From positions 1 through 64,000 of the forward strand of contig NZ_JACXXG010000002.1 of the NCBI RefSeq assembly GCF_014764705.1: a stretch of DNA of 64,000 bases, in the 5' to 3' direction. This DNA comes from Stutzerimonas kunmingensis (GTDB taxonomy: Bacteria > Pseudomonadota > Gammaproteobacteria > Pseudomonadales > Pseudomonadaceae). Below the pieces are notes generated by a model. That model made no database searches. It saw only the letters and a list, made by a program, of their open reading frames with translations, and was not told the DNA's origin. Shown piece after piece: positions 1,528 through 14,636 of this stretch (position 1 is the first letter of the stretch; the number at the start of each line of letters is the position of its first letter). The translations under genes were made by a program, and so were the position numbers.

Positions 1528-3477
1528 TCAGGCTTCGTCGAGCAGACCGCGGATCTTGATCAGCAGGTCTGCACCTTCGAACGGCTTGAGTACCAGCTCC
1601 ATGCGCTCATCGACAAAGCCCTCGCGACTGGATGCGCTCTCCGCATAGCCGGTCATCAGCACCACCGGCAATGTCGGACGCTCGCGGCGTGCCCATTCGG
1701 CCAGCTGGCAACCGGAAAGACGGGGTAGCCCGACATCGCTCAGCAGCAGGTCAATCGACGGGTCGGCCTCGAGCAGAGACTGGGCGGTTTCCACGTCTCC
1801 CGCCTGGCTGCAGCGGTAGCCGGCTTCGATCAGCGTCTCGGCGATCAGCATGCGCACGCTGGGCATGTCTTCCACCACCAGCACGTGCTCGTGGCCGACC
1901 AGCCGCATCGAACTATCCGGCGCTGCGGCGGGCGTCGCTGCCTGTTCGCCGTTGGCGGCGGGCAGCAGGAGGGTGACTTCGGTTCCGGCGCCGAGCGTGC
2001 TGCGAATGCTCGCATCGCCACCCGACTGCAGGGCAAACCCGTAGATGCTCGACAGGCCCAGCCCTGTGCCGCGGCCCTGCGGCTTGGTGGTGAAGAAGGG
2101 GTCGAAGACCTTGTCCAGCACGCCGGGCTCGATACCCGTTCCGTCATCGCTCACGCACAGACCTATGTAGCGCCCTGGCGCGAGTTCCGCCTTCTGGCTG
2201 CCATCCGAGGGAAAGGTACTGATGCGGATATGCCCGCCTTCGGGCAACGCATCGCGGGCGTTGATCACCAGATTGAGCAGGGCGCTCTCGAACTGGCTGA
2301 CGTCCACGCGCGCCACCGCGGGCTCGGCGGTGAAGTCGAAGGTCAGTGTGATGCGCTCGCCGATTGTGCGCCGCAGCAGGTCTTGCAGCGAGCGGATGCG
2401 TTCGTTGATATCCAGCGCCCGTGCATCCAGCGGCTGTTTGCGAGCGAATGCCAGCAGGCGATTGGTCAGCGACGCTGCACTGCGCGCCGAGCTGAGCGAG
2501 GCATCGGCAAAGCGCAGCACGCTGTCGGCGCGGCCTTCGATGATGCGCTGCTTCATCAGCTCGATGCCGGTGATGATGCCGGTGAGCAGGTTGTTGAAGT
2601 CGTGGGCGATACCGCCAGTGAGTTTGCCCAGGGCGTCCATCTTCTGCGCCTGCAGCAGCTGCTCTTCGGTGCGCGCTCGCTCGGCGACCTCGTGGGCGAG
2701 CTGACTGGTGGTAGTCGCGATTTCCTGGCGCTGTGCGCGTTCACGCAGACGCTGTTCGGTTACGTCCTCGACGAACACCAGGCCCAGGCCCTGTGCGCGG
2801 TACGGGGAAATCTGCCACTCGGTCTCGCGGGTCTCGCCGTTGACCTGCATTTGCAGCGGCGTATGCCAGCGCTCGCCGGCCTGAAGATGTGCGCTCAGCT
2901 CGGCGAGAATCGTCTCCTGCCCGGCGGCGACGCTTTGCGAAAGGGGCGAAGCCGGGCTGGCACCGCCAATCAGCAGTTCGAACGCGTGATTGCACTCGTG
3001 CAGCTGCAACTCGGCGTCGAGCACCGCGATGGGCGCGGCGACATGGAAGAAGATTTCCCGGAAGCGCGCCTCGCTGTCACGCAGTGCGCGCTCGGTATCG
3101 CGCACCCGCAGCAGGGTGCGCAGCGTCGCCAGCAGCACGTCGGGGTCGACCGGGTGGATCAGGTAGGCATCGCCGCCGGCATCGAGGCCGGTGATGATGT
3201 CGTTGGTCTCGATGGAGGCGGCGGACACGTGAATCAGCGGCAGCAGGGCGGTGTTCGCATCGGCGCGCAGCTGGCGGGCGATGTCGAAGCCGCTCATGTC
3301 CGGCAGGTTGACGTCGAGGATCAGCGCATCCGGCGCGGCGTTGGCCACCAGTTCCAGGCCTTCGCTGCCAGTGCCGGCTTCCAGCACCTGATAGCCATGG
3401 CGTTCCAGTACCCGGCGCATCGCATAGCGCGTCGGCGCGTTGTCGTCGACGATCAACAGACGGCTGTCACGCTCCAT
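1528..3477 (-). CDS. Hybrid histidine kinase, receiver-PAS-kinase-receiver (stressosome output)
   Basis: A soluble 649-residue protein. Order: N-terminal receiver (LLIVDDN start, phospho-acceptor Asp in LILDVNLPDMSG, around residue 55), a PAS-like domain (around 140-250), a histidine kinase core with H-box [14 protein letters not shown] (around 290), a HATPase domain (DDGTGIEPG; GTGLGLSSIYGF), and a C-terminal receiver (LLLSDVGLPRLSG, MTGYAES). No membrane segment or DNA-binding domain is seen, so the output must pass to another protein. ATG at 3477 was chosen over a codon 18 nt upstream because GGAG lies at the right distance. It overlaps the kinase gene before it by 11 nt and is the last gene of the rsbRST operon. 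The same H-box type occurs in the hybrid kinase at 14907-17468. Confidence 0.9.
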   Translation of the reverse strand: MERDSRLLIVDDNAPTRYAMRRVLERHGYQVLEAGTGSEGLELVANAAPDALILDVNLPDMSGFDIARQLRADANTALLPLIHVSAASIETNDIITGLDAGGDAYLIHPVDPDVLLATLRTLLRVRDTERALRDSEARFREIFFHVAAPIAVLDAELQLHECNHAFELLIGGASPASPLSQSVAAGQETILAELSAHLQAGERWHTPLQMQVNGETRETEWQISPYRAQGLGLVFVEDVTEQRLRERAQRQEIATTTSQLAHEVAERARTEEQLLQAQKMDALGKLTGGIAHDFNNLLTGIITGIELMKQRIIEGRADSVLRFADASLSSARSAASLTNRLLAFARKQPLDARALDINERIRSLQDLLRRTIGERITLTFDFTAEPAVARVDVSQFESALLNLVINARDALPEGGHIRISTFPSDGSQKAELAPGRYIGLCVSDDGTGIEPGVLDKVFDPFFTTKPQGRGTGLGLSSIYGFALQSGGDASIRSTLGAGTEVTLLLPAANGEQAATPAAAPDSSMRLVGHEHVLVVEDMPSVRMLIAETLIEAGYRCSQAGDVETAQSLLEADPSIDLLLSDVGLPRLSGCQLAEWARRERPTLPVVLMTGYAESASSREGFVDERMELVLKPFEGADLLIKIRGLLDEA

Positions 3478-4339
3478 CGGAAGGCTCCGTATCAATCGCC
3501 AGAGGCAGAACTACATAGAACTCCGAGCCCTTGCCTGGTTCGCTTTCCACACCGACACGGCCGCCGAGCAGTTCGGCGAAACGCTTGCATAACGCCAGGC
3601 CGAGGCCGGTGCCGCGCAGGCGCTTCTGCAGCGGCGAGTCGACCTGGGCGAAATCTTCGAAAAGCCGGTCGTGCAGCTCGGGGGCAATGCCGATACCGGT
3701 GTCGCTGACGGCGAAGCGGACCTGCTGCGGGTTTTCCATCCGTGCCGACACGCGCACCACCCCCTGGGGCGTGAACTTCACCGCGTTGGAGATGAAGTTG
3801 CGCAGGATCTGCGCCAGCTTCTTGTCATCGGTATAGAGCCGCGGAATGCCTTCGGGCTCTTCGAAGATGAGGTCGATCGGCGAGCCCTCGACGATGGGGC
3901 GGAACATGCCGCGCAACGCCGAGAACAGGTCGAGCATGTCGAACCACGCCGGGGAAATGCTGACGCGGCCGGCTTCGATCTTGGCCAGGTCGAGCAGATC
4001 ATCGACCATCTCGCTCAGCTCGCTGGCGGCCGAGCTGACGAAACGCACCTGCGTGTGCTGTTCCGGGCTCAACGGGCCGTCCAGTTCGTCGCTGAGCAGG
4101 CGGGTGATGCTGAGGATCGAGCCCAGCGGCGTACGGAACTCGTGGCTCATGTACGACAGGAAGCGGCTCTTCAGGTCCGAGGCCTGGCGCAGCTGCTCGG
4201 CCTGGGTGTCCAGCTCGGCATACAGCGCCAGTACACCCTGATTGGTTTCTTCCAGTTCGGCGCGCAGCGATTCATTCGCCCGGCGCAGCTGTTCGAGCTG
4301 GCCGGCGTCGCCGGTCTCGGGGGACGTCGGATCAGCCAC
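3467..4339 (-). CDS. Soluble sensor histidine kinase of the stressosome operon
   Basis: A 290-residue kinase without membrane segments. An N-terminal coiled coil (residues 10-55, rich in Glu, Leu and Arg) leads into the HisKA domain with H-box SHEFRTPLGSI (around 67-77), then HATPase with N-box NFISNAVKFTP, G1 DTGIGIAP and G2 GTGLGLALCKRF. It would autophosphorylate and hand phosphate to the receivers of the hybrid kinase that overlaps its 3' end. The start is GTG at 4339, supported by GGAGG 6 nt upstream and an 8-nt overlap with the phosphatase gene. Lack of a sensor domain fits control by a cytoplasmic partner such as RsbT; that link is inferred from operon order, as in the Vibrio-type stressosome operons. 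Confidence 0.9.
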   Translation of the reverse strand: MADPTSPETGDAGQLEQLRRANESLRAELEETNQGVLALYAELDTQAEQLRQASDLKSRFLSYMSHEFRTPLGSILSITRLLSDELDGPLSPEQHTQVRFVSSAASELSEMVDDLLDLAKIEAGRVSISPAWFDMLDLFSALRGMFRPIVEGSPIDLIFEEPEGIPRLYTDDKKLAQILRNFISNAVKFTPQGVVRVSARMENPQQVRFAVSDTGIGIAPELHDRLFEDFAQVDSPLQKRLRGTGLGLALCKRFAELLGGRVGVESEPGKGSEFYVVLPLAIDTEPSDGA

Positions 4340-5342
4340 GGGGAGCCTCCAGATTGAGTGCCAGCACGGTCACGTCGTCGCGACCGCGGCAGAAGTCGCG
4401 ATGCAACAGTGCGGCGATGATGGCCGGGTGACGGTGAACGAGACCGGGGTAGTCGCGCAGATTCCAGCGTGTTTGCAGGCCATCACTGTAGAGCACCAGC
4501 AGCCGCGCCTCACCCAGCGGATAGTCGAAGACATGCGCCTTGCGAAAGCGCACGCCGACGATGCCAGGATGCGAGGCCAGGCCACGCGAGCCCTCGCTAG
4601 CGATCAAGCTGGCGCCGATATTGCCGATGCCGGCGAAATCCAGCGTCTGACGCTGGCCGTCGAAGTGCGCGATGGCTGCGGCGCCGCCACGAGTGCCGTT
4701 CATCGCCTGGTGCATATTGCTGAACAGGGCGAAGGGGGAATCCAGCGGGGATTCTGCAAACGCCACCGCACCTGCCAGTGCGGCCTGTTGGGCAAGCTCA
4801 CCATGGCCGATGCCATCGATGACCAGGGCACTGCAGCGCTGCCCATCGAAGGCCAGCTGCCAGGCGTCGCCACAGGCTGTTTCGCCTGGATAGGGATGCT
4901 GACTGACGCCGTAGCGCCACGGCGGCGGCTGCACGCCGCGAGGAAACAGCTGCGCCAGCACCACCGAGCCGCGGGCATCGGAATAGGCGTCGAACACCTG
5001 GGCCTGACGCGCCAGCGCGCCGAGCCCGATGCCCTGGGTGCCGCGGGTGGAAAAGCCGTCGGTCAGGCATTGATCGAGGTCGAAGCCCGGACCGCGGTCG
5101 ACCGCGATGATTTCGACGCCGCGCCCCTCTCGTCCAGGAATTAGGCGCAGGTGCAGTTCGCCGCGCCCGGCGTGCTTGAGCAGGTTACTGCCCAGCTCGG
5201 TGGCGAGCAGGGCGACGCGCCCGGCATCGGTGGTGTCGAAGTCGTGCTGTTCGGCCAGCCGCTGGGCGACCCGGCGGGCGTGGCCGATCTGGCTGTTGTC
5301 TTCGATCAGCTGGACTTGGGTGACGCTTCCCTGAACGTTCAT
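4332..5342 (-). CDS. rsbX: RsbX-like PP2C phosphatase with N-terminal RsbW/RsbT-type ATPase domain
   Basis: A 336-residue fusion. The first ~135 residues are a GHKL kinase-like domain (ELGSNLLKHAG N-box; DRGPGFD; GTQGIGLGALARQ). The rest is a SpoIIE/PP2C phosphatase with metal-binding aspartates in GETACGDAW, VIDGIGHGE, YSDGLQTR and RGRDDVTVLAL. In Bacillus, RsbX dephosphorylates RsbR and RsbS and resets the stressosome; that role is inferred here from position after rsbT and from the domain. The fused ATPase domain is absent from Bacillus RsbX but known from Gram-negative stressosome clusters. ATG at 5342 forms an ATGA overlap with rsbT; a GTG two codons earlier is a weaker alternative. Confidence 0.88.
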   Translation of the reverse strand: MNVQGSVTQVQLIEDNSQIGHARRVAQRLAEQHDFDTTDAGRVALLATELGSNLLKHAGRGELHLRLIPGREGRGVEIIAVDRGPGFDLDQCLTDGFSTRGTQGIGLGALARQAQVFDAYSDARGSVVLAQLFPRGVQPPPWRYGVSQHPYPGETACGDAWQLAFDGQRCSALVIDGIGHGELAQQAALAGAVAFAESPLDSPFALFSNMHQAMNGTRGGAAAIAHFDGQRQTLDFAGIGNIGASLIASEGSRGLASHPGIVGVRFRKAHVFDYPLGEARLLVLYSDGLQTRWNLRDYPGLVHRHPAIIAALLHRDFCRGRDDVTVLALNLEAPRG

Positions 5343-5743
5343 GTCCACCGCGTGATGGTGATTCGGGTGCCCGCGCCGACCGTGCTGTCGAGTTCGAACT
5401 CGTCAACCAGCCGCTTGGCGCCGGTCAGCCCCAGGCCGAGGCCGCTACCGGACGTCCAGCCGTCGGTCATGGCCAGCTTGATGTCGGCGATGCCCGGGCC
5501 TTCGTCGCGGAAGGTCAGGCGCACGCCGACCCGCGTGCCATCCTCGATCAGCTGCCAATCCATGTCGCCACCGCCGCCGTAGACCACGGTGTTGCGCGCC
5601 AGCTCGCTGACCGCCGTGACCAGCTTGGTCTGGTCGATCAGGCGCATGGCGCATTCCTGGGTCAGCTTGCGCACGGTCTGCCGCGCCAGCACGACATCCT
5701 GTTCGAGGCGCACCGGCTGGCTGCCGCTGCTGCGCACGATCAT
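5339..5743 (-). CDS. rsbT: RsbT-type serine/threonine kinase, stressosome switch protein
   Basis: A 134-residue single-domain GHKL kinase. The N-box (SELARNTVVYGGGG, around 46-59), G1 box (RDEGPGI, around 78-84) and G2 loop (GSGLGLGLTGAKRLVD, around 97-112) are all intact. RsbT phosphorylates RsbS and RsbR in the stressosome, is released, and then activates a downstream partner. In Bacillus that partner is the RsbU phosphatase, but no RsbU is present; the neighbours are instead an RsbX-like protein and two kinases. The start overlaps the rsbS stop (ATGA). Family assignment is strong because of gene order rsbR-rsbS-rsbT and size. Confidence 0.93.
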   Translation of the reverse strand: MIVRSSGSQPVRLEQDVVLARQTVRKLTQECAMRLIDQTKLVTAVSELARNTVVYGGGGDMDWQLIEDGTRVGVRLTFRDEGPGIADIKLAMTDGWTSGSGLGLGLTGAKRLVDEFELDSTVGAGTRITITRWT

Positions 5744-6102
5744 TGCGCGGCCACGCGGGCGCGCAGCAGCTGCATGCCGCGCTCGACGTTCAATGCGGTG
5801 CTGACACCAGGGAGGTCGAGACCGAGTTCGACCAGGGTGATGGCCACGGCCGGCTGCATGCCGACCACTACGGTCTCGGCATCCATGATCCGCGACAGGC
5901 CGGAGATGGTGCCGATCATGCGGCCGATGAAGGAGTCGACCATGTCCAGTGCGGAGATATCGATCAGCACGGCCTTTGCCGACGTCGCGCTGATGCGTTC
6001 GGCCAGGTCGTCCTGCAGGGTCATCGCCAGTTGGTCGTGCATGTCGACCTGGATGGTGACGAGCAGAAACTCGCCCATCCGCAGAATGGGTATGCGATCC
6101 AT
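5740..6102 (-). CDS. rsbS: RsbS-type stressosome scaffold (STAS domain)
   Basis: A 120-residue single STAS domain. The sequence LIDISALDMVDSF carries Ser57, matching in position the serine (Ser59 in B. subtilis RsbS) phosphorylated by RsbT, followed by the typical GMQPAVAITLVELG segment. RsbS and RsbR build the icosahedral stressosome core that holds RsbT inactive. ATG at 6102 overlaps the rsbR stop by one base (TAATG), which fixes the start and argues for translational coupling. Family assignment is firm. Confidence 0.95.
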   Translation of the reverse strand: MDRIPILRMGEFLLVTIQVDMHDQLAMTLQDDLAERISATSAKAVLIDISALDMVDSFIGRMIGTISGLSRIMDAETVVVGMQPAVAITLVELGLDLPGVSTALNVERGMQLLRARVAAQ

Positions 6103-6992
6103 TAGACGGCCTTCGTCACGGTGAGGCCGGAACGGCGCAGGGCCAGGGCCAGGGCGTCGGCCAGGCTGGCCTTGGTGACGATGCCTTGCAGGTCCAGGCC
6201 CAGGTGCACGATGGTCTGCGCGATCTGTGGACGCACGCCGCTGATGATGCAGTCGGCACCCATCAGGCGAATCGCGGTGACCGTCTTCAGCAGATGTTGG
6301 GCGACCAGGGTGTCGACCGTCGGCACACCGGTGATATCGATGATGGCGATTTCCGAACCGGTATCGACGATGCGCTGCAGCAGCGACTCCATCACCACCT
6401 GGGTGCGCTGCGAGTCGAGGGTGCCGATCATCGGCAGGGCGAGCACGCCGTCCCACAGCTTGACCACCGGGGTCGACAGCTCCAGCAACTCTTCCTGCTG
6501 ACGCTTGATCACTTCTTCGCGGGACTTCTGGAAGGTGCGCACGGTGTACAGCCCGAGGCTGTCGATCAGCTCGGATACCGCCCACAGCTGCTCGGCGAAT
6601 ACTGCCGGTTCGTTGGCGTATTCGCTCTGCAGCAGGGTCATCAGCGGACGCTTGATGGCGAAGATGAAGCCCGCGGTCTGTTGCGAATCCATGCCAAGCA
6701 GGGCGCGGCTGCGCGAGAGTTTTTCCAGGTACAGGCGCATGCTGTCCCAGGCCGGACCGTTGATATCGGCCGAGCCGTCTGCCGTTCCGCTGATCAGCTG
6801 ACGGATGAAGTCGACGGTCTGCTGGGCCAGTTCTTCGGGCTTGACGTTGTGATAGCCGCCCAGATTCTGCAGGTCGGACTTCCAGCTGCTGAGCAGTTCG
6901 GCCTGATTGCGAGTAATGGTGTCGGTGGTACGTTGCAGCAGGGCCGCCATAGGTCTAGCTCCGGATTTGATTTGATCGTCCATGTTCACCAT
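6102..6992 (-). CDS. rsbR: RsbR-type stressosome sensor (globin-like N-domain plus STAS)
   Basis: A 296-residue protein with a helical N-terminal half (about 1-155), a linker helix (about 150-180, RTFQKSREEVIKRQQEELLE) and a C-terminal STAS domain (about 185-290). Thr228 (PTVDTLVAQH) and Ser194 (TLDSQRT) sit 34 residues apart, the same spacing as the RsbT targets Thr205 and Thr171 of Bacillus RsbRA; the latter position is Ser here. The N-domain is the sensor part and in this family has a globin-like fold. Whether it binds heme, as in Vibrio, cannot be judged without a structure model. First gene of the operon; ATG at 6992 has no clear ribosome site, and a second in-frame ATG lies 9 nt downstream. 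Confidence 0.92.
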   Translation of the reverse strand: MVNMDDQIKSGARPMAALLQRTTDTITRNQAELLSSWKSDLQNLGGYHNVKPEELAQQTVDFIRQLISGTADGSADINGPAWDSMRLYLEKLSRSRALLGMDSQQTAGFIFAIKRPLMTLLQSEYANEPAVFAEQLWAVSELIDSLGLYTVRTFQKSREEVIKRQQEELLELSTPVVKLWDGVLALPMIGTLDSQRTQVVMESLLQRIVDTGSEIAIIDITGVPTVDTLVAQHLLKTVTAIRLMGADCIISGVRPQIAQTIVHLGLDLQGIVTKASLADALALALRRSGLTVTKAV

Positions 6993-7146
6993 GGCGCATT
7001 AGCAAGAGTAGATATCCACCTTGCTGCGATGTTCCGCGCAGCCGGCCGCAGTCGCCTGCTTTCGGGAAATTCCCGACGGAAAAGCTGGGAGATACTAGCA
7101 AATGGATATTAGCCAGGCGTGAGATTCGTTGCGCTCGATTCGCGCC

Positions 7147-8046
7147 TCAGCCAGGCGCCACGGCGTCGATCTGTTCGATCAGCCATTGCAGCGCCGAGTC
7201 GTTCTGTCGCTGTGCGACGCTGACGATATCCAGCGCGAAGGTGCCGAGATCGAACGGCAGATCGAAGGTTTGCAGGGGTAGCAGCGTGGCGAAATAGCGT
7301 GCCAACTGGGTCGGCAGTACGGCAGCGAGGTCGCTGCTGGCGACGATATGCGCGGCCTGCAGGTAGTTCGGCGTGGTGTAGACAACCTTGCGTTCAAGCC
7401 CTTGGGCTTCCAGCCACTGGTCGACCATGCCGCGGGTCTGGCCACCATGCACCCACAGGTGGCGCAGGCGCAGAAAGGCATCCAGATCCAGCCCCGCCAT
7501 CAGCAGCGGGTGGTCGCGCCGCACCGCCACCTGCAGCGTCTCGCTGGCCCAGCGACGTACGTGAAAGCGTGACGGCACCTCGAGAAAGCGCCCGAGCACC
7601 AGGTCGACCTCGCCGTTGTCCAGCGCTTCGACCGGCAGCGTCGGCGTCAGGTGCTGGATCGCCAGCTGGATGCCGGGTGCGTGCTCGGCCAGCCGCCGCA
7701 TCAGCGCGGGCATGCAGATCAGCTCGACATAGTCGGTCACGGCGATGCGGAAACGCTGGTGGCTGCGCGCCGGATCGAAGGCTTCGCCGGCAATCAGGCT
7801 GTGCTCGATCTGCTGCAGCGCATGGCGGATCGGTGCTTCCAGTGCCAGCGCCCTTGGTGTCGGCTGCATGGCTCGGCCGGCACGCACCAGCAACGGGTCG
7901 TCGAGTAGTTCGCGCAAGCGGGCCAGGGCATTGCTGACCGCCGGCTGGCTGAGCGACAGCCGCTCCGCCGCCCGCGAGACGTTGCGCTCGCGCAGCAGGG
8001 CGTCCAGCACACGGAGCAGGTTGAGGTCGAAGTTGTAGATATTCAT
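7147..8046 (-). CDS. LysR-family transcriptional regulator
   Basis: A 299-residue LTTR. The N-terminal winged helix (DLNLLRVLDALL..., recognition part SRAAERLSLSQPAVSNALARL at about residues 20-40) is followed by the periplasmic-binding-protein-like effector domain. It is divergent from the fatty-acid oxidation genes starting at 8149, the classic arrangement for a LysR regulator and its target. ATG at 8046 gives the standard MNIYNFDLNLL start; ATG at 8064 is an alternative. The effector is unknown; an acyl-CoA or alcohol-derived ligand is a guess from the neighbours. Positions 6993-7146, between it and rsbR, hold no gene and must contain the stressosome promoter. Confidence 0.92.
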   Translation of the reverse strand: MNIYNFDLNLLRVLDALLRERNVSRAAERLSLSQPAVSNALARLRELLDDPLLVRAGRAMQPTPRALALEAPIRHALQQIEHSLIAGEAFDPARSHQRFRIAVTDYVELICMPALMRRLAEHAPGIQLAIQHLTPTLPVEALDNGEVDLVLGRFLEVPSRFHVRRWASETLQVAVRRDHPLLMAGLDLDAFLRLRHLWVHGGQTRGMVDQWLEAQGLERKVVYTTPNYLQAAHIVASSDLAAVLPTQLARYFATLLPLQTFDLPFDLGTFALDIVSVAQRQNDSALQWLIEQIDAVAPG

Positions 8047-13128: not shown

Positions 13129-13590
13129 TCAGTGATGCTTGTGTTTGTGCTTGTAATGACCTTTGGCTTTGCCTGGATGGCCGTAGTAGCGGCGATCATC
13201 CCGGTAGCGACGGTCACGCCGGTAGTCATCATCATCGTCGCCGTAGGCATTGCCGATCGCGCCGCCAGCGCCGCCGCCCACGGCTGCGCCGATCAGCCCA
13301 CCCGTGCTGCCACCGACCTGCTGGCCGATGACATTACCGCCAGCGGCGCCGAGGCCACCACCAATGGCCGCTTCGGTACGGCTGCGTTTGTCCGCACCGA
13401 CCATGCCACCAGCCGCGCCGCCAACGCCGGCACCGATGGTGGCGCCGGTCGAGCCCCCCAGATGCTCTCCCACCACTGAACCCAGTGCACCGCCAAGCGC
13501 GCCGCCGACGGCGGCTTCGGTGTTGCTGCCGGCGAAGGCTGCCGCGCTGAGCAGACTGGTGGATAACAGGAAAATCGAGGCGTACTTCAT
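13129..13590 (-). CDS. Glycine-zipper protein with signal peptide and basic His-rich tail
   Basis: A 153-residue protein with a Sec signal peptide (MKYASIFLLSTSLLSAAAFA, cleavage likely after AFA at 20). It continues with glycine-zipper repeats (GGALGGALGSVVGEHLGG and similar, about 28-115) and ends in a charged segment (DDDDDYRRDRRY) and a His/Lys tail (HYKHKHKHH). Glycine-zipper domains insert into or pack along membranes, so an outer-membrane or periplasmic place is likely. The tail could bind metal or polyanions; that is a guess. No specific function is known to me. It is a lone gene with its own terminator. Positions 13591-13787 upstream hold its promoter and no other visible gene. Confidence 0.85.
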   Translation of the reverse strand: MKYASIFLLSTSLLSAAAFAGSNTEAAVGGALGGALGSVVGEHLGGSTGATIGAGVGGAAGGMVGADKRSRTEAAIGGGLGAAGGNVIGQQVGGSTGGLIGAAVGGGAGGAIGNAYGDDDDDYRRDRRYRDDRRYYGHPGKAKGHYKHKHKHH

Positions 13591-13787
13591 GGAGTGATCC
13601 CGTATGTGGATTGCGCCGCGATCCTCACGCGCCGCTGCGCTTGCGGCAAGAGCGTTCCGATGAAATGCGTGATCCGGTTGGCGTTTGCTAACTATTTGAT
13701 TTCGCTAAGGAACAAGAGGATGTTTCGAATGGTCTCAAGTCGCTTGTGGGGCCTGAGCGCAGCGCCTTTACCCCCTCGGAATCAGCA

Positions 13788-14636
13788 TCAGCCTTGCGCG
13801 CGCACCGCTGCGGCAGGGCTGTAGATCCGCGGCGGGCTGTGCTGTGGCAGGTGGATGAGGTTGAGGTTATGCCGCTGCGCCCACTGGGCGGCCAGGCCGG
13901 TGGGTGAAGACAGGCTTACCAGCGCTGGAATCCCGGCCCGCTGAACTTTCTGCACCAGCTCCAGGCTGCAGCGGCTGGTGACGATCGCCAGGCCGCCGGC
14001 CGCTGCACAGCCGGAGCGGGCCATGGCGCCGATCAGCTTGTCCAGCGCGTTATGCCGTCCGATATCCTCGCGGCCCAGGCGGATCTCGCCGTTGGCGTCC
14101 ATGAGCAATGCGGCGTGCACCGCCCCGCAGTCGCGCCCCAGCGGTTGAAACGCTTCGATTCGTTGACGCAGGTCCTGCAACCAGTGCGAGGGCGGCAGTG
14201 GTGCTGCCGGCATGATCGGCAGGCGCGGCAGTGCCTGCTCCAGCGCTTCGACCCCGCAGAGCCCGCAGCTGCTGTTGCCGGGTAGCTGGCGGCGTTGCAG
14301 CTTGAGGCGCCAGAATGCGCGGCTGGCGATGTCCAATTCGGCGCGCCGCGCACTGCCGCTGCCGTGCAGGCGAATGTCGTAGATATCATCCAGCGACTCG
14401 ACGAAGCCATTGGCCAGGCTGAAGCCAACCACGAAATCTTCCAGATCGGCCGGCGAGATCATCATCACCGCCTGGCTCAGCCCGTTGTAGGCGATCGCCA
14501 GCGCGCACTCCTCGGCAAGATCGACTGCGCATTGCGCGACATCGTCGATCGGCTGGTAGCAGTAACGCTGGCTGGCACCGGCAGGTGGTTGCGCGGCAGC
14601 GGCGACGCCGGCATTCAGGCGAGACGGGGCGTTCAT
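13788..14636 (-). CDS. fdhD: FdhD, sulfurtransferase for formate dehydrogenase molybdenum cofactor
   Basis: A 282-residue FdhD protein. The CxxC-containing motif SSCGLCGVEALEQ (around 121-133) carries the cysteines that pass sulfur from IscS to the bis-MGD cofactor of formate dehydrogenases. REDIGRHNALDKLIG (around 195) and SRCSLELVQK (around 222) are further family motifs. Its likely client in the window is the FdhF/YdeP-type molybdoenzyme at 38030-40402, which is not adjacent. The first ~20 residues (Ala/Pro rich) are variable. Positions 14637-14906 upstream show no gene. Confidence 0.95.
   Translation of the reverse strand: MNAPSRLNAGVAAAAQPPAGASQRYCYQPIDDVAQCAVDLAEECALAIAYNGLSQAVMMISPADLEDFVVGFSLANGFVESLDDIYDIRLHGSGSARRAELDIASRAFWRLKLQRRQLPGNSSCGLCGVEALEQALPRLPIMPAAPLPPSHWLQDLRQRIEAFQPLGRDCGAVHAALLMDANGEIRLGREDIGRHNALDKLIGAMARSGCAAAGGLAIVTSRCSLELVQKVQRAGIPALVSLSSPTGLAAQWAQRHNLNLIHLPQHSPPRIYSPAAAVRAQG

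Follow-up and report, generated by a model that had tools for sequence, protein, structure and literature searches.

A stressosome operon of Stutzerimonas kunmingensis with a proposed two-kinase relay as effector and a kinase coil as candidate docking site for RsbT

The stretch of DNA analysed here (hereafter the window) comprises the first 64,000 nt of contig NZ_JACXXG010000002.1 of Stutzerimonas kunmingensis (GCF_014764705.1; positions 1-64,000, forward strand) and carries, on the minus strand at positions 1528-6992, an operon of six genes in the order rsbR, rsbS, rsbT, an rsbX-like phosphatase gene, a gene for a soluble histidine kinase and one for a hybrid histidine kinase. We propose, with a probability of roughly 0.6, that this operon encodes a Gram-negative stressosome that has a relay of two kinases as its effector and in which RsbT docks on a coil of the first kinase. 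An earlier reading of the DNA alone (the sequence-only reading) had described the operon as a stressosome coupled to a phosphorelay in place of a sigma factor, and our results support that description, both by the gene order in 79 of 80 related loci and by the retention of catalytic residues.

The operon and the coil of its first kinase

The six stressosome and kinase genes indeed overlap their neighbours, by 1, 4, 4, 8 and 11 nt when ATG starts are used. RsbR (6102-6992; 296 aa, with an alternative ATG at 6983) consists of RsbRD_N and STAS domains according to Pfam, which was also used for the other domain assignments, and carries Ser194 and Thr228. RsbS (5740-6102; 120 aa) is a single STAS domain with Ser57, and RsbT (5339-5743; 134 aa) is a HATPase_c protein, a GHKL switch kinase in which the N box and the G1 Asp are intact (residues of RsbR and RsbS are numbered from the first start codon). 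The RsbX-like phosphatase (4332-5348; start likely ATG 5342, or else GTG 5348) combines HATPase_c_2 and SpoIIE domains and is followed by the soluble kinase (3467-4339; GTG start at 4339; 290 aa; coil-HisKA-HATPase_c, with His66) and by the hybrid kinase (1528-3495; start likely ATG 3477, or else TTG 3495; REC1-PAS_4-HisKA-HATPase_c-REC2).

The phospho-sites of RsbR and RsbS, which the sequence-only reading had listed as kept, are each present in 91 of 91 homologues, and its statement that the kinase boxes are intact holds for nearly all homologues as well. His66 and Asn185 of the soluble kinase are conserved in 91 of 91 homologues; in the hybrid kinase, Asp61 of REC1 is kept in 90 of 90, His298, Asn412 and Asp587 in 89 of 90 (the remaining row has a gap), and the G1 residue Asp451 in 82 of 90, with Asn in seven. 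A C-terminal STAS domain with phospho-sites in RsbR, a single-STAS RsbS and an RsbT with N and G1 boxes make up, at the level of sequence, a stressosome core. An RsbX-type PP2C gene directly downstream of rsbT completes an rsbRSTX module. Of a histidine phosphorelay, the kinase His residues, the boxes for ATP and the receiver Asp residues are conserved.

There are no RsbU, RsbV, RsbW or SigB genes within the operon. RsbU_N (PF08673) has no match in the whole genome, the effectors of the operon included, and no sigma factor of the SigB/F/G type scores above the curated cut-off anywhere in the genome (best 136 against 234 bits). The earlier claim that sigma-B, RsbV and RsbU are missing therefore stands genome-wide for sigma-B and RsbU_N; for RsbV it covers the operon and a list of nine STAS matches in the genome, RsbR and RsbS among them, this list being the only search beyond the operon that bears on RsbV or RsbW, and RsbV not having been searched for as such.

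The soluble kinase, which has no RsbU_N domain, carries ahead of HisKA a coil of 44 residues (4169-4300; ELxxTNxGVxALYxELxxxA), the proposed docking site of RsbT. Fifteen positions of this coil are invariant in 88 of 89 aligned kinases, the remaining row being gapped at most of them, and the same 15 are invariant in a coil profile of 12 rows. Comparison of the coil with solved structures gave nothing beyond chance (two hits at E 0.3-0.5). Among 299 genomes of Pseudomonadota, the coil profile found 14 at E 1e-5, distributed over seven families, and had no hits in the other 285; in all 14 (13 regions that were fetched and the window) the coil is located in the gene after rsbRSTX. An RsbT profile, run on what is apparently the same draw of 299 genomes judging from identical totals and handles, matched 30, and the 14 of these that score above 200 bits are the 14 coil genomes (Fisher's exact test of coil against any RsbT hit, 3.8e-16, for genomes that are related and not independent). 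Within the family, the coil scores of 119 genomes are bimodal: 40 reach at least 63 bits, and none of the rest exceeds 25.1 bits. The rsbRSTX genes were found beside the coil gene in all 15 neighbourhoods viewed out of these 40, and three weak hits (19.9-25.1 bits) sit in unrelated proteins.

The other evidence that connects the coil with RsbT comes from fused forms of the kinase. The coil is immediately preceded by an RsbT-like ATPase domain in the kinase frames of L111-L114, which belong to the same genus, and of L138, L139, L140, L195 and L196; HATPase_c_2 was confirmed in the fused kinases of L111 and L140. In L141 and L143 the RsbT-like domain and the coil are found on a kinase core for which the hybrid kinase of the window is the best match, and in L182 an RsbT-like domain is joined to a HisKA_2/HWE kinase core. 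Judging from their length, 25 of the 40 coil frames of the family have the size of the fused form (586-634 aa), the other 15 measuring 290-339 aa. In a tree of 68 RsbT-like domains, which was built without L195 and L196 and from which five short matches and 12 of the 80 remaining rows (ordinary kinase ATPase domains) had been left out, ten kinase-fused domains fall into a single group (100/95) that lies with RsbT. Among the short matches left out was a stretch in the kinase of L142 (6855-9482), which resembles RsbT but, by eye, has neither the N box nor the G1 motif and which gave no HATPase_c_2 match; the coil behind it is intact, and L142 is a possible intermediate in the loss of the domain. 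The short form of the kinase constitutes one clade (98/92) above the fused forms in the kinase tree (lower supports 89/79 and 82/80, with very long outgroups). It seems, therefore, that the kinase of the window has probably lost a tethered RsbT-like domain, although these long outgroups make the root of the tree uncertain.

A proposed route for the signal and its rivals

The core steps of the mechanism that we propose are based on the established scheme of the Bacillus subtilis stressosome, with its core of RsbR and RsbS, its switch kinase RsbT and a phosphatase that resets it. By analogy, RsbR and RsbS would form a core that holds RsbT; upon a signal at the globin-like domain of RsbR, RsbT would phosphorylate Thr228 and Ser194 of RsbR and Ser57 of RsbS and depart, and the RsbX-like phosphatase would reset the core. 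Free RsbT would dock on the N-terminal coil of the soluble kinase and switch its activity, comparable to the way in which RsbT binds RsbU and orders its coiled-coil linker in B. subtilis (PMC12143880). The soluble kinase would then phosphorylate Asp61 in REC1 of the hybrid kinase and in this way set the hybrid's own kinase activity, and REC2 would hand the phosphate to an HPt protein encoded elsewhere, most plausibly an HptB-like protein. Docking of RsbT is the simplest reading because a domain of the RsbT family is tethered to the same coil and because the coil is confined to rsbRSTX operons in the regions examined.

A number of observations weigh against this proposal. In 16 of the 30 RsbT-positive genomes of the phylum (those with RsbT scores of 78-132 bits) no coil was hit, and a renewed search of 11 of these 16 regions revealed no coil either; since the genomes are related, the counts of co-occurrence overstate the evidence. 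The coil doubles as the stem in front of HisKA, and kinase signaling alone may account for its conservation. The fused RsbT-like domain could instead bind the STAS core, and in L182 it occurs without the coil motif; the tree of RsbT-like domains is built from few columns and leaves many of its forks open, with the L182 domain on a long branch. Further down the relay, receivers normally carry a Lys at a conserved site where REC1 (3121-3456) has His114. A His occupies this position in all 90 rows of type A, that of the window among them, and in all four of type B; the residues at this site in four further operons are H, H, Q and A, and L111-L114, which are outside that count, also have His. Because of this His in place of the switch Lys, a standard receiver role of REC1 is uncertain, and the HptB-like protein as relay partner is a guess by elimination. 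Finally, Heinz et al. failed to detect binding of RsbT to VvD1, the downstream kinase of Vibrio (PMC9237108).

For Vibrio, the same authors suggested that RsbT phosphorylates the downstream kinase in a transient contact (PMC9237108), and in the operon described here RsbT, a Ser/Thr kinase, could act likewise, e.g., on Thr32 of the coil and without docking. Of 89 rows, 88 have Thr32 and the other is gapped there, and the GGDEF effector of L181 has, by eye, a Ser at the equivalent site. We nevertheless regard this explanation as unlikely. The residues next to Thr32 in the coil (N, G, V, A, L, Y, E and L) are just as invariant, a pattern that resembles an interface more than a phospho-site. In L142, moreover, the coil is intact although the RsbT-like stretch tethered to it is, by eye, without N box and G1 motif, which favors docking over phosphorylation.

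It could also be envisaged that the stressosome core carries the kinase and holds or releases it as a unit, with RsbT-like domains, be they fused or free, binding STAS domains and the coil serving only as a dimer stem; the occurrence of RsbT-like domains on both the kinase and the RsbX-like protein of the same operons, as if both were tethered to the core, would fit such an arrangement. It seems quite improbable, since it explains neither the strict coil of the kinase in the window, which has no RsbT-like domain, nor the finding of the coil only after rsbRSTX. That the hybrid kinase possesses a PAS_4 domain of its own leaves room for kinases that are co-transcribed but independent and answer to this domain, with RsbRSTX acting on an unlinked target, but the linkage of the six genes in nearly all loci, the genome-level co-occurrence of the coil and RsbT in the phylum and the existence of fused RsbT-like/kinase forms make this very hard to believe.

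Sensor, phosphatase and surroundings of the operon

The AlphaFold2 model of RsbR (mean pLDDT 78, pTM 0.54) consists of an all-helical N-domain followed by the STAS domain. Its top structural match is the RsbR of Listeria (7b0u), which over the full length reaches a TM score of only 0.42-0.45, and a weak match was obtained with the globin sensor 5ohf (E 0.05, TM 0.69 on the target, 12% identity). Haem had been put forward as a possible ligand of this domain, to be judged by structure prediction. No His is invariant or nearly so in an alignment of the N-domain that took in 36 of the 50 non-redundant sequences available, that of the window among them, and haem was rejected as a ligand; binding of haem by RsbR is unlikely because such a His is lacking among these sequences. 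Near position 149, within the final long helix of the model, the alignment consensus has a majority His, but the window has Tyr. Based on the model and on the lack of a conserved His, the N-domain probably has a non-haem globin-like fold.

The RsbX-like protein, of which the model is well defined (pLDDT 90, pTM 0.90), carries an extra RsbT-like ATPase domain at its N-terminus (HATPase_c_2, 4959-5297) ahead of its PP2C/SpoIIE domain (4353-4844). The C-terminal half is nearest to 3zt9 of Moorella (TM 0.89 on the target) and then to RsbX of B. subtilis (3w40; 0.80). An alignment of the protein took in 41 of the 67 non-redundant sequences available, that of the window among them. In the tree of RsbT-like domains, 24 of the 25 RsbX-borne ones group together (100/89), apart from the free RsbTs, the domain of the window among those set apart; the exception, that of L190, has a long branch. 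At another locus, L183 (8174-9108), two consecutive RsbT-like genes are followed by an RsbX of one domain, as though the RsbT-like domain had a gene of its own there.

REC2 (1537-1884, ends approximate), with Asp587, Thr615 and Lys637, looks canonical. An HPt partner, to which the sequence-only reading had pointed, is not encoded in the operon; the genome contains 11 HPt matches in five frames, only one of which (136 aa) is free-standing. This free-standing HPt frame adjoins a REC-SpoIIE-HATPase_c_2 gene and a STAS gene; we take it to be HptB-like, and its neighbors would correspond to HsbR and HsbA. HptB would receive its phosphate from hybrid kinases.

The stretch 6950-7200 showed neither a sigma-70-like promoter nor a terminator pattern. 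Just past the 3' end of the operon, two rsmX sRNA genes (Rfam RF02144) are located on the plus strand at 355-464 and 1348-1456 of the window, with a cold-shock gene between them. By eye, rsmX lies beside the operon in 16 of the 18 genomes of the genus with an RsbT at least 93% identical, the other two having rsmX on other contigs, and in none of the 26 other RsbT-positive genomes of the genus, for many of which rsmX was hit on a different contig or not at all. The link with rsmX was not used as evidence for the output of the operon. The Pseudomonas sRNA P34 (RF02405; 61 bits) was encountered further along the window, at 13490-13820 on the plus strand.

Distribution and relation to known stressosomes

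Of 56 genomes in the genus, 44 gave an RsbT match, with 40 at 77-100% identity and four divergent ones at 46-53%, and the RsbT of the window is 100% identical to that of the named locus L031. A scan of contigs of named genomes confirmed at least 420 relatives, of which the best 80 were kept; counted by eye from their titles, these comprise 71 Pseudomonas, six Stutzerimonas, one Luteibacter and two metagenome bins. Of these 80 loci, 79 have the six genes in the same order and on a single strand, and the remaining one, L064, ends before the sixth gene; L087 and L088 are cut at one end, and L032 and L086 each have one split gene. Since the order is retained in these mostly Pseudomonas loci, the operon is an ordinary part of many Pseudomonas genomes, in a group that has harmless laboratory strains among its members. 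The contig of L087 is labeled Candidatus Eremiobacteraeota, which may represent gene transfer or a mis-binned contig.

A search of the open-access literature, outside of which fall the 2005 and 2017 surveys of Pane-Farre and colleagues (cited in PMC10014275), yielded no paper describing a Pseudomonas stressosome, and the available text of PMC8508746 does not treat the operon. The suggestion that the system is little described in Pseudomonas-like organisms is therefore borne out as far as that search reaches, but the operon itself is common. The survey of Heinz et al. (2022), which started from globin-coupled RsbR and in the main text of which, as available, the word "Pseudomonas" is absent, described rsbRSTX modules followed by HisKA and REC proteins in other Proteobacteria, with most proteins downstream of Gram-negative rsbRSTX modules lacking RsbU_N (PMC9237108). 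Consequently, the general arrangement is not new. The coil and the fusions of RsbT-like domains to kinases were not met in the literature searched, nor in the available text of PMC9237108, which is weak evidence of their absence from print; with that strength, what is new here would be the conserved coil on a first kinase without RsbU_N and the RsbT-like domains fused to it.

Similar operons are, as had been stated, known in Vibrio: those of Vibrio vulnificus and V. brasiliensis, with rsbRSTX and VvD1/VvD2, share with the present one the succession of rsbRSTX and two-component genes and the lack of SigB and RsbU (PMC9237108, PMC4976288). The RsbR of Vibrio, however, carries a haem globin (PMC4976288), whereas an RsbRD_N domain without a conserved haem His is found here; RsbX is a single-domain protein in clusters of the Vibrio type (PMC9237108), whereas an RsbT-like domain has been added to it here; and, unlike in Vibrio, the last gene encodes a REC-PAS-kinase-REC hybrid. 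HisKA and REC proteins downstream of rsbRSTX are also shared with the other stressosome-phosphorelay modules of Heinz et al., e.g., that of Ruegeria (PMC9237108). The B. subtilis rsbRSTUVW-sigB-rsbX operon has RsbR, RsbS, RsbT, an RsbX-type phosphatase and the phospho-sites in common with ours but differs in that the latter has no gene for RsbU, RsbV, RsbW or SigB, the effector being a histidine kinase without RsbU_N. As in the RsbT-RsbU linker mechanism, RsbT is proposed to act on a coil leading into a dimeric effector, but its receptor there is RsbU_N plus the linker (PMC12143880) and here would be the coil alone. The Moorella stressosome likewise has a non-sigma effector, in that case a diguanylate cyclase in which GGDEF is combined with RsbU_N (PMC12143880) instead of a pair of kinases, and provides with 3zt9 the nearest solved relative of the phosphatase domain.

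Several other effectors were encountered at stressosome loci: a kinase with RsbU_N (37 bits) at L180, long hybrid kinases with HPt at L184-L186 and a SpoIIE-type phosphatase at L187. Degenerate RsbT-like N-termini in the Vibrio-like kinases of L184-L186 are not claimed, hhalign against the RsbT profile giving probabilities of only 0.1-0.5 on a percent scale, and a search of 274 genomes of the class with the N-terminus of L185 returned its own genome only. At L181 (9743-11926) a PAS-GGDEF-EAL protein follows rsbRSTX, the N-terminus of which weakly resembles the coil, as was first noticed by eye. It gave no coil hit at E 0.1; the coil-like stretch ranked 21st of 923 domains reported from 4699 open reading frames, at a non-significant E of about 1, and one of 4986 scored shuffles was as good, a figure that is flattering because L181 was one of seven effector N-termini inspected. 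The sharing of the coil by L181 is thus a lead only.

It is tempting to regard the coil as a second kind of RsbT receptor beside RsbU_N and to see in the RsbT-like domain, whether joined to the coil or not, a transferable plug that would have coupled stressosomes to at least three kinds of histidine-kinase core and possibly, via the coil, to a GGDEF-EAL protein; the lineage of the window would have lost the tethered domain, with free RsbT acting in trans. We hold this wider view tentatively and put it at somewhat less than an even chance. Heinz et al. saw no RsbU_N on most proteins encoded downstream of Gram-negative rsbRSTX modules and did not detect binding of RsbT to the Vibrio kinase (PMC9237108). 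A short conserved coil, seen only after rsbRSTX in the genomes examined and sometimes fused to an RsbT-like domain, offers a concrete and testable site for the exit of the signal from such stressosomes.

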